From Candidatus Hydrogenedentota bacterium (lineage in GTDB: Bacteria > Hydrogenedentota > Hydrogenedentia > Hydrogenedentales > SLHB01): DNA of 39,867 bases. This document shows, one piece after another, positions 11,023 through 39,381 of the stretch. Made by a program: the position numbers and the translations under genes. The DNA lies in the NCBI GenBank assembly GCA_903925285.1, contig CAIYET010000136.1, forward strand, positions 1 to 39,867, written 5' to 3'. A model generated the notes under the pieces. The model was not told the origin of the DNA and searched no databases. It saw only the letters and a list, made by a program, of their open reading frames with translations. How positions within the stretch are numbered: the first letter of the stretch is position 1; every line of letters starts with the position of its first letter.

Positions 11023-12693
11023 TCACTTCTTCTGCGGCGGCAGCAACTGGAATTCCCAGAGCGTCGGGCCTTCGGTGGCTTCGGTGATATTGAGCCTGAA
11101 CTCGAGTCCTTTCACGGGCGGGAACTTGGCGTGGAAATCTTCGCCGATCGTTTTGCCCTTGTAGCACGCCACCCACTGCTTATCTTTCAGGTACTCGATG
11201 GCGAACGATTGCACGCGCGACCCGCACGACTCGCGGATATGCACCGCGCCAACCTCCGTAGGCTTCGCCATACGGACCGCGAGCCATGCCTGATGCGTGC
11301 CGCCGTCCGTTGCCCAGCGCGTGTTGTCCTCGCCGTCCACCGCCTTGGCCGCGTTGTAGGTTTCCATATTCCCATGCACGTTCGAGGCCGTCGCACCACG
11401 CGACTTGAGCGCCTGCTCGGCGGCCATGGCCATGGGCGGGACATCGAAGGCGGGACGATCGAGCGTGAGAACCACAATCGTATCGATGCTCTGGCGCGCG
11501 GTTTCGGGAATCCGAAGTTGAATGCCCTTGGACGTCTGCTGCATATGGACCTTGCCGCCGGTCAGCATCGACGCGTCTTTGATATGCGCCTTGATCGCCG
11601 GCAACCGCCATGACTTGTCCACAGTCTTCCAGTCGAGAATATGCACATAGACCTTGTTGCCTTTGCAGGTGCTCGATCCCCACGCGCCCGGCTTGAACGG
11701 CCCGCCGCGCGTCCCGTAGATTGTCTCGCCGTACCGTTCGAGCCACGCGCCCATCTCGGCCAGCCGCGAGACCATCCGCGGCTCGATGCGTCCATCCGGC
11801 ATCGGCCCGACATTGAACAGCAGGTTCCCGTCGCCGCCCGCGCACCGGATCAGCACATCGAGACACTGCTTGAGCGACTTTACGTTATCCTTCGGTTTCC
11901 ATGCCCATTGGTCGCCGATGGTCATGCACGTCTCCCAGGGACGCGAGCGCTGAAACGTGCCGATCGTCTGTTCCGGCGTGTCGAAATCCTCCGGCAGCCC
12001 CGCCCGGTTGTTGACGATGATCTTCGGCTGCAACTGGCGGATCGTCGCAACGAGTCTCTCCGAGTCCCAATCCTTGTTCGTTCCGCCAAGGCCGTCGAAC
12101 CAGAAAATGTCCAATTGGCCGTATTTCGTACACAACTCGCGCGCCTGGCCATGCAGGTATTCGAGATACCGCGCGTGGTTCTCGGTGCGGTAATCCGGGT
12201 GGTGCCAGTCCGGCGGCGAATAATAGAAGCCCAGACGCAGTCCGGCTTCGTGACACGCCTGCGCCAATTCCCCTACCACATCGCGTTTGAACGGCGAATT
12301 CGTGATTTTGTAGTCCGACAGCGCCGTATCGAACATCGAAAAACCGTCGTGATGCCGCGTCGTGAAAACCAGGTACTTCATTCCTGCCTGCTTGGCGATC
12401 GCGACCCATTCCTTCGCATTGAACTCGACCGGATTGAACTCCTTGTACAGGTTGTCGTAGACATCCACCGGGATTTGACCCGGCGCGCCACCCGTGCCGC
12501 GCCGCTCGCCGCCCCGCGACCAGCCAATCTCGGTGCCCTTCAGACTGACCGAACCCCAATGAATGAAAAGTCCAAACCGTGCCTCGCGCCACCACTCCAT
12601 CCTGTCCGCCTGCTGCGCAACGGCTGTGCCGCCAATCCCCAGCAACATCACGGCGACGACTGCAAACGAAATGTAACGAGCACAAGTCTTCAT
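11023..12693 (-). CDS. Alpha-L-fucosidase (GH29), secreted, with C-terminal F5/8-type-C-like domain
   Basis: MEWWREARFGLFIHWGSVSLKGTEIGWSRGG, YLVFTTRHHDGFSMFDT, YYSPPDWHHP, DIFWFDGLGG, LLFNVGPMPDGRI; C-terminal YNAAKAVDGEDNTRWATDG. Confidence 0.95.
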   Translation of the reverse strand: MKTCARYISFAVVAVMLLGIGGTAVAQQADRMEWWREARFGLFIHWGSVSLKGTEIGWSRGGERRGTGGAPGQIPVDVYDNLYKEFNPVEFNAKEWVAIAKQAGMKYLVFTTRHHDGFSMFDTALSDYKITNSPFKRDVVGELAQACHEAGLRLGFYYSPPDWHHPDYRTENHARYLEYLHGQARELCTKYGQLDIFWFDGLGGTNKDWDSERLVATIRQLQPKIIVNNRAGLPEDFDTPEQTIGTFQRSRPWETCMTIGDQWAWKPKDNVKSLKQCLDVLIRCAGGDGNLLFNVGPMPDGRIEPRMVSRLAEMGAWLERYGETIYGTRGGPFKPGAWGSSTCKGNKVYVHILDWKTVDKSWRLPAIKAHIKDASMLTGGKVHMQQTSKGIQLRIPETARQSIDTIVVLTLDRPAFDVPPMAMAAEQALKSRGATASNVHGNMETYNAAKAVDGEDNTRWATDGGTHQAWLAVRMAKPTEVGAVHIRESCGSRVQSFAIEYLKDKQWVACYKGKTIGEDFHAKFPPVKGLEFRLNITEATEGPTLWEFQLLPPQKK

Positions 12694-36904: not shown

Positions 36905-37225
36905 ATGGGGAATGTCAAGCAGAAGATCGATGCGACAGATCGGTTGGCAGGCGAGGTCGCACATGACTTCAACAAACCGCTACCCAAAATGGAGATTCCG
37001 TGTGGAACGGAAACAATCTTGTTCGCCGAAGACGAACAGTTGCTTCGCAATCTGGGCAAACAGATCCGCCCCAGCGGCGGATATCGGATACTGGCCACCA
37101 AAGACGGGCATGAGGCGTTTGGCCTTTATCCCAATAGGGCTATCCGCTTGACTCCGGCAACCACAACATGCCGTGTGTGTGACTCACAGAGGCAGGCGGA
37201 GAACCCTCGGTTACCTTGGAGTTGA
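36905..37225 (+). pseudogene. Remnant of hybrid sensor histidine kinase (H-box joined to partial receiver domain)
   Basis: ATDRLAGEVAHDFNKPL resembles the HisKA RLAGGVAHDFNNLL box; GTETILFAEDEQLLRNLGKQI..GYRILATKDGHEAF resembles a receiver start; ATPase domain absent, receiver breaks off. Confidence 0.7.
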
Positions 37226-37389: not shown

Positions 37390-39030
37390 CTACCTGTCAG
37401 GCCCCCCCGGTAGCCTTTCTTCTGCCAGGCGTTTCCAGGCATAGCCTGTCGTAAAGCTGCTGTAAACAAGGTCAAGGAGGTACCGTGGTACACTCTTTGC
37501 CTCTGCTGTCCCCAAGAGACCGGCAAATCGGGATTTGAGGGAGCTCTGGGCGCCTGCGTCACGCCAGCGGACAAAATAGAAACAGGACTCGGCCATGTCC
37601 GTGGCGTCGCCAAGAAGCTCAAGGATGGGTTTTGTTTTCCACCGAAATGACGCCCGCCAGATGAATCTCGGATGCTGGTGGGTAAGTATCTCGCGACGGA
37701 CATCTGCCTGCATTTTCGAACCAACTCGAAATTGCTTCTTGTATTCATTCACCAATATCAGGTGTATATCCCAGTAGTAGTCCTTCTGTTCCTTGTCATT
37801 CAGGTTCTCGAAGACAGATCGCAGGATCTGGTCCAAGGGGAAAACACTTCTGATGATGTCCTCGTACTTTACGCGGATCTTTCCGTAGAGAGGAACGACT
37901 ATCGCTTCAAGCTTGAAGGGGGTCGGATCATTCTCGTTCCTCCAATGCCCTCTCGTCACGATTGGGCTGCCGACCTCGCTGGCAACCTCAATCGCAGCAA
38001 ACGGTGCGATTTGATCATCGTGAACGAAGAGCCGACAAATCCGAGAAGCGATGGTTTGGGGTAGATCACTATGGGCGTGGTGAAGAATGTCGCCACTCAT
38101 CTCAAAGCCCACGACCGTAACGGCATGACGACCAAGCCCGTCAATCTTACCACAAAGAATAACTGGAAGACCCATGGCGAGATAGCCGTGGACGTAACCG
38201 AGGGCTATGCCCATATTCCTGAGCTCGTTCGATTTTTTCAGATGTTCGGGCAGTTCCGAATCATCTTTGCGCTTCTCCGCTATGTCAAAAACCTCTGGCT
38301 CCAACCCGGCGCACACAATGGCGGCGCACATCTCTTCCACCGAGAGGCCTGTCGAGGGAAAAGGACGACCGCCGAGAGAACTTGCATGCTGGGTAATTTT
38401 CGCGGGCCTCAGGGGGGAAATCCCAAAAAGGACAGATAGCTTCTGGAAGGCACACCAGAGGGATACCGTGGCGCATGCCGCAACGACGGTATCTTGCTGT
38501 TGAAACGCCAAAGTTCCACGGATTTTCAGAGGAATGCCAAAAAGATTCGCGTCATAGTCACGCGTGGCTCGATACTGGACTCCGTTCGTCGCAGGCGGGT
38601 ACGGAAGGATCACCGTTCGACCAATTATGGCTCTTGGGAGAGGCCGTGTAACGCAGAAACCGCAGTAACAAGCTTGAAGCTGCTCCTCGGCCTCGCGACG
38701 AGCCTTGTCAGTGTCCCCTGCCAACGCCGTGTTCAGGAGGCTTTCAACGTTCTTGTCGTCTCCCCTAAAGAAGTGCAGGCGTCTGCACCGGTTCCTATAC
38801 TGCGCGAAGCAACGTACATGGAAGGAGGCAAAGTCTTCCATGTAATCCCCATCTACATAGTCATCCTCAATGACAATAGTCAGGACGCCGCATTTTCCAA
38901 GATATGCGAACAATTCCTTCGCTTGATGAACAGAGTGAACTGTTTCGGGTGGACAGTGTTCATTGGCAAGAACAGCATAGAATACCTCCTCTGAAAAGAC
39001 AACACACCTCACCGCTGAAGTACTAGGCAT
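37390..39030 (-). CDS. Putative papain-fold/C39-like cysteine peptidase-type protein of unknown function
   Basis: 546-aa ORF; Q/Cys region LAFQQQDTVVAACATVSLWCAFQ, His region GLGRHAVTVVGFEM, Asp region RLFVHDDQIAPFAAI in papain order. Confidence 0.7.
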   Translation of the reverse strand: MPSTSAVRCVVFSEEVFYAVLANEHCPPETVHSVHQAKELFAYLGKCGVLTIVIEDDYVDGDYMEDFASFHVRCFAQYRNRCRRLHFFRGDDKNVESLLNTALAGDTDKARREAEEQLQACYCGFCVTRPLPRAIIGRTVILPYPPATNGVQYRATRDYDANLFGIPLKIRGTLAFQQQDTVVAACATVSLWCAFQKLSVLFGISPLRPAKITQHASSLGGRPFPSTGLSVEEMCAAIVCAGLEPEVFDIAEKRKDDSELPEHLKKSNELRNMGIALGYVHGYLAMGLPVILCGKIDGLGRHAVTVVGFEMSGDILHHAHSDLPQTIASRICRLFVHDDQIAPFAAIEVASEVGSPIVTRGHWRNENDPTPFKLEAIVVPLYGKIRVKYEDIIRSVFPLDQILRSVFENLNDKEQKDYYWDIHLILVNEYKKQFRVGSKMQADVRREILTHQHPRFIWRASFRWKTKPILELLGDATDMAESCFYFVRWRDAGAQSSLKSRFAGLLGTAEAKSVPRYLLDLVYSSFTTGYAWKRLAEERLPGGPDR

Positions 39031-39049
39031 GGGGATTTCTGAAGAGTAG

Positions 39050-39223
39050 TCAGTATGTCACACGCATTCGCAACGTGTCAACGCTCACACATCCTGCCTG
39101 ATCGAGCCAGCGCATTCGCTCCGCGAAGTCCTTAAATGCACCCTGAAGACGTTCCTGCATTTTCTCCTCGGTCGCCGGGACAATCACCAAGCCCGCAACA
39201 CCCTCATCTTCTTCTTCTGGCAT
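39050..39223 (-). CDS. Small acidic protein (57 aa), not in the ORF track
   Basis: MPEEEDEGVAGLVIVPATEEKMQERLQGAFKDFAERMRWLDQAGCVSVDTLRMRVTY; AAGGAGA RBS; stops 19 nt before the 546-aa ORF. Confidence 0.65.
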   Translation of the reverse strand: MPEEEDEGVAGLVIVPATEEKMQERLQGAFKDFAERMRWLDQAGCVSVDTLRMRVTY

Positions 39224-39347
39224 AATAGGTCTCCTTCCACGAATACCCTCTACATCACATATCGAACTTTTACCATATCAACACGCAATTGTCAACAGGA
39301 ATTAGGTCGTTGCAGTATTTTTTCGATATCTGCCGATCACAACCGTA

Positions 39348-39381
39348 AACCCCGCAGTCCACTTTCGTGAACTGCGGGGTT
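39348..39381 (-). terminator. Hairpin downstream of 5S rRNA, probable rRNA operon terminator
   Basis: AACCCCGCAGT-TCACGAAAGTGG-ACTGCGGGGTT; only a short T run follows. Confidence 0.6.

Follow-up and report, generated by a model that had tools for sequence, protein, structure and literature searches.

In toxin-antitoxin loci of the ToxIN type the antitoxin gene comes first, and a terminator precedes the gene for the toxin. Bub operons for ubiquitination-like modification are accompanied by the regulators CapH and CapP, which are of the helix-turn-helix (HTH) plus ImmA type (PMC13373217), and DUF955 genes adjoin 70% of PF14452 proteins (PMC4963859). A functional link of ubiquitin-like (Ubl) domains with papain-like peptidases has been suggested for prokaryotes (PMC1779556); the polyUbl operon table of the same work, type 6e included, holds no papain-like peptidase. 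Here we describe a two-gene cassette from a Candidatus Hydrogenedentota bacterium that encodes a predicted papain-fold cysteine peptidase of 546 aa and a conserved small partner of 57 aa. It lies on the minus strand of contig CAIYET010000136.1 (GCA_903925285.1), which was analysed over its whole length of 39,867 nt (the window). Both open reading frames (ORFs) and the 19 nt gap between them are present as a first-pass annotation, made from the letters alone, had read them. Neither window protein matches Pfam, NCBIfam or PADLOC, and the module is uncatalogued, the family having no model of its own in any of the three.

The large protein is a predicted papain-fold peptidase

The 546-aa protein was modelled using AlphaFold2. 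The single sequence results in a predicted local distance difference test (pLDDT) value of 36, an alignment of 63 sequences in a pLDDT of 89.9 and a predicted template modelling (TM) score of 0.91. In a Foldseek comparison with the PDB the top matches are staphopains, one of them in complex with staphostatin, followed by C39 peptidase domains (target TM scores ~0.55-0.62, probability ~1, the best E-value being modest at 0.0018). The overlap with PDB structures is restricted to the papain core, and Josephin is found among the weak structural matches. The papain-like structure expected by the first-pass annotation is thereby recovered. A sequence search of the PDB with the protease returned nothing significant.

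The model consists of an N-terminal alpha/beta domain with an invariant R84-x-H86-F-F motif, the papain core (~164-381) and a C-terminal domain (~389-535). Every relative that covers the columns in question retains Gln179, Cys186, His302 and the Asp338-Asp339 pair, in agreement with the Gln-Cys-His-Asp order initially noted; four positions in the N-terminal domain (Arg84, His86, Tyr122 and Gly124) are likewise invariant. The Cys starts a long helix, the His is located on the next strand and the Asp ends the strand that follows. The profile Peptidase_C39_2 (PF13529) is matched by 18 of 63 relatives at E-values up to 0.1 (best 7e-7). In a relative from a P. aeruginosa plasmid it spans residues 186-328 and thus nearly the whole profile, with a score of 24.7 against a cut-off of 24; the window protein itself stays below the threshold. 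Model topology, Foldseek matches and the near full-length profile match point to a genuine Cys-His-Asp triad. Taken together, the modelled fold and the invariant catalytic residues show the 546-aa protein to be a predicted papain-fold cysteine peptidase. It has no signal-like or membrane segment (highest 19-residue hydropathy 1.7), again in line with the first-pass annotation.

Two gammaproteobacterial relatives (P0004 at L010, P0006 at L011) have an extra C-terminal domain of ~200 aa, reaching from about residue 500 to the end, with a GHPxxTGxxAARIxGE...SGRYS motif and no sequence match in the PDB.

A small partner gene is conserved upstream of the protease

Nine of the first ten relatives show an ORF of 52-66 aa upstream of the protease gene. 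In the extended set of 79 loci all but about four have an ORF of ~50-75 aa directly upstream, a count that was made by eye and is approximate, several of these ORFs being found only on hand inspection. The exceptions are L060 and L017 without a clear partner, L103 where it is doubtful, and L098 where it is frameshifted. At L017 (8300-8610) a stretch resembling by eye the start of a DarT-type gene takes the partner's place.

Any small upstream ORF is found for 50% of control genes. Mere presence was therefore not counted, and the evidence rests on the C-terminal tail and on selection. The tail, where the partner is most strongly conserved, lies at the stop codon and roughly reads V-T/S-x-x-x-L-x-R-x-hydrophobic-T/S-hydrophobic; the end of the 57-aa window protein, VSVDTLRMRVTY, fits it. 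A hand-made pattern for the tail hits 28 of 79 loci and none of 536 control genes, whereby the pattern was derived from the same data and the comparison is partly circular. A held-out tail score gives an area under the curve of 0.83 over 28 clusters, half of which lie above the 99th control percentile. Moreover the partner is under purifying selection, with ratios of nonsynonymous to synonymous substitution (dN/dS) of 0.04-0.27 in close pairs, where testable. From these comparisons of sequences we conclude that the small ORF is a real, conserved partner of the protease, short enough for annotation to miss, and that the pairing proposed for the window extends to nearly all homologous loci.

The cassette is patchily distributed and found on mobile elements

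A first search of 60 genomes revealed relatives in seven others, one of them by a weak partial match only. Searching the genome and viral collections with a pattern from the single protein gave no relatives, whereas the alignment search did find them: 145 stretches in the genome collection, 80 of which were kept, and four viral contigs. Hosts are Bacteroidota, Pseudomonadota, Gemmatimonadota, Planctomycetota, cyanobacteria, archaea and others. Four plasmids carry relatives as well; phage records contained none. Within the Hydrogenedentota the family occurs in only 7 of 68 genomes including that of the window, where the 546-aa protein is present in a single copy. Being patchy in its phylum and at the same time spread across bacteria and archaea, the family follows a mobile-gene pattern, and judged from this distribution the two-gene cassette is horizontally mobile. 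In another Hydrogenedentota genome (L021) the copy is located within a type I restriction locus, and at L100 it lies inside a phage genome beside the portal gene.

In L100 (7909-9444) and in L101 the cassette stands just before a lambda-type portal gene, which suggests a prophage cargo gene. On the viral contig L103, ARAGORN calls a tRNA at 11982-12056 with the anticodon CTA, labelled Pyl, possibly a stop-codon suppressor tRNA.

An intergenic terminator is enriched in relatives

In 22 of 77 loci the 110 nt ahead of the protease start contain an intrinsic terminator, compared with 11 of 452 controls (Fisher p ~1e-12, the related loci not being fully independent). The stems vary in sequence between clades, with pairing kept. 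In the Pseudomonas alignment the terminator is invariant and clearly follows the stop codon of the small ORF. DNA conservation in this clade is higher ahead of and across the small ORF than in the protease.

In several Pseudomonas loci (L011:7300-7860, L077, L088, L072, L081, L083 and kin) the small ORF ends in codons (TGCAGCC) capable of pairing with the terminator's 3' arm, and conservation is unusually high in the noncoding DNA upstream and at synonymous sites. This may reflect an attenuator or a regulatory RNA specific to the clade. For most clades we rejected attenuation through a competing pairing as a general mechanism, since the pairing is missing in most other clades that have a terminator.

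E1 genes, often with polyUbl genes, lie near about a quarter of the loci

A ThiF-type, i.e. ubiquitin-activating-type, E1 gene is present at 21 of 88 loci, always at most four genes away from the protease gene and never at a distance of 5-8 genes. Many of these loci additionally contain multiubiquitin, DUF6527, HTH and ImmA genes. On the tree the E1 association shows seven state changes, about six of them gains, and has therefore arisen repeatedly. Two of the four plasmid carriers encode a polyUbl system, compared with 162 of 72,556 plasmid records overall. The linked E1 comes in variants, with a weak JAB-like match (L027) or with DUF6791 (L011). Some copies adjoin caspase-type genes. In the search that included positive controls, no ubiquitin-like gene was found near the window copy and no Multi_ubiq match in its genome; a Multi_ubiq match is likewise absent from eight other carrier genomes without E1 at the locus. 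The ubiquitin-like or defence neighbours considered in the first-pass annotation, caspase-type genes among them, thus exist at related loci, but ubiquitin-like ones are missing at the window copy.

The window locus

The features of the window locus are summarised in Table 1. The ribosome binding site of the small ORF, previously described as good, is indeed strong. The protease gene has no obvious one, and the protease is therefore likely to be translationally coupled to the small ORF.

Table 1. Features of the cassette and its upstream region in the window.
Feature	Position	Strand	Basis or remark
Papain-fold cysteine peptidase gene, 546 aa (predicted)	37390..39030	-	ORF reading, AlphaFold2 model, alignment
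Intergenic gap, 19 nt, partner to protease	39031..39049	-	No terminator, no strong protease ribosome binding site
Small acidic partner gene, 57 aa	39050..39223	-	ORF reading; protein end VSVDTLRMRVTY
Shine-Dalgarno GGAAGGAG of small ORF	39231..39238	-	Strong
Possible sigma-70-type promoter TTGACA-17 nt-TAAAAG	39267..39295	-	By eye; weak -10; absent from promoter scan list
Strong hairpin AACCCCGCAGT...ACTGCGGGGTT 3' of the 5S gene	39348..39381	-	By eye

On the same strand, the cassette is preceded by the 5S gene and the final part of the 23S rRNA gene, and the hairpin is the probable end of the rRNA transcript, parting the cassette from rRNA transcription. The cassette has a GC content of 52.8% and a GC content at third codon positions (GC3) of 57%, compared with ~60% and mostly 70-80% for the window ORFs checked, and its codon fit is among the two lowest. 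The differing style noticed before is thus seen in numbers, with two other checked ORFs equally low or lower in GC3. On the other side of the cassette, a short ORF (36905-37225, plus strand) joins by eye a stretch like a histidine-kinase H-box (HisKA) and a receiver-like stretch. It looks like a decayed hybrid kinase and has no Pfam match at E 0.001. Of the setting originally given, between a decayed kinase and the rRNA operon, the rRNA genes are confirmed and the kinase is a reading by eye.

Interpretation of the module

We favour, at somewhat less than an even chance, a module in which a mobile cytoplasmic effector peptidase of the papain/C39 fold, acting in immunity or as a toxin, is checked by the ~50-75-aa partner and released on stress or infection. 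The reasons are the position of the small gene in front, a likely excess of the partner, a protease as effector, mobility and defence-type company. With its gene first, the partner would probably be made in excess over the protease, owing to translational coupling in the window and, in many relatives, to the terminator between the genes, with the protease expressed only from read-through. The conserved C-terminal tail would lie within the cleft of the protease or close to it. Infection or DNA damage would upset the balance, such that the protease is freed to cut its target proteins. At roughly one locus in four the module would have been added onto E1/polyUbl systems with HTH and ImmA (CapH/CapP-like) regulators. 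The inhibitory action of the partner, the signal that frees the protease, its target proteins and a role in immunity are all inferred; for the cassette itself an accessory or immune role is suggested. Several observations weigh against the restrained protease. At L060 the protease is apparently intact and a partner is not visible; short-gap loci such as the window lack the terminator; E1 genes are absent from 67 of 88 loci, which have heterogeneous neighbours; the window copy has no ubiquitin-like neighbour; and PADLOC has neither a model for the protease nor a match common to the relatives.

The small protein might instead be the dedicated substrate or activator of the protease, either as a pro-peptide acting in trans or as a signal peptide cut at the C-terminal tail. 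Conservation peaking in a tail that ends at the stop codon fits such a role, as does the processing of small precursor peptides by C39 peptidases, which are among the closest folds. However, a double-glycine leader motif, a transporter fused to the protease and a consistent transporter neighbour were all not found, and gene order and intergenic terminator suit a partner in excess, so that we consider a substrate or activator unlikely, if worth serious attention. Processing of ribosomally synthesised and post-translationally modified peptides was set aside, as there is neither such a leader nor a transporter.

It is rather improbable that the protease is a Ubl-specific peptidase maturing or removing polyUbl modifiers in the linked E1 systems. 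The repeated adjacency to E1 and polyUbl genes, the weak Josephin match, the papain fold of many eukaryotic deubiquitinases and the prokaryotic link suggested earlier (PMC1779556) speak for it. Against this stand the 67 of 88 loci without a nearby E1 and the lack of Multi_ubiq matches in the window's genome and in the eight other carriers; moreover, the linked E1 with its weak JAB match in L027, or with DUF6791 instead in the L011 type, shows that the protease is no simple JAB replacement. The chance is slim that the small ORF is mainly the leader peptide of a translation-sensing transcription attenuator. The invariant Pseudomonas terminator, its possible pairing with TGCAGCC and the conserved synonymous sites and upstream DNA would suit an attenuator, but most other terminator clades lack the competing pairing, the window and many other loci lack the terminator altogether, and selection on amino acids and the tail are seen across phyla.

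Read most broadly, the restrained protease would represent an undescribed, widespread immune module of protease and mini-inhibitor, self-mobile and repeatedly recruited as proteolytic arm of bacterial ubiquitin-like defence systems, whereby an intergenic terminator sets the partner excess in many lineages. In this breadth we hold the proposal as tentative and rather doubtful. Eukaryotic signalling characteristically combines ubiquitin-like conjugation with papain-fold peptidases. If a peptidase family repeatedly joins prokaryotic polyUbl systems, and also travels alone with a conserved mini-partner, it would tie polyUbl to proteolysis and provide a new class of bacterial protease effectors that is open to experiment.

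Comparison with known systems

With Peptidase C39-like proteins (PF13529; C39 domains of PCAT1 and ComA) the family has the papain fold and the order of Gln, Cys, His and Asp in common. In contrast, its members are not fused to a transporter, are extended by large N- and C-terminal domains and are accompanied by a small partner encoded separately. The best fold matches are staphopains, and in the staphopain-staphostatin system a protease gene is likewise paired with a gene for a small protein, the partners being compared by arrangement alone. Staphopains are secreted and have a pro-domain, and the gene order differs from that of the window cassette. As in polyUbl (type 6e) and Bub operons with CapH/CapP, the module is accompanied at roughly one locus in four by linked E1, polyUbl, DUF6527, HTH and ImmA genes; a papain-like peptidase is not listed for type 6e (PMC1779556), and solitary copies of the module exist, that of the window among them. 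Toxin-antitoxin loci resemble it in the small gene coming first, in the terminator before the effector of many relatives and in mobility, a likeness drawn here from genetic architecture alone. Unlike ToxIN-type loci, the module combines a protease effector with a small-protein partner.
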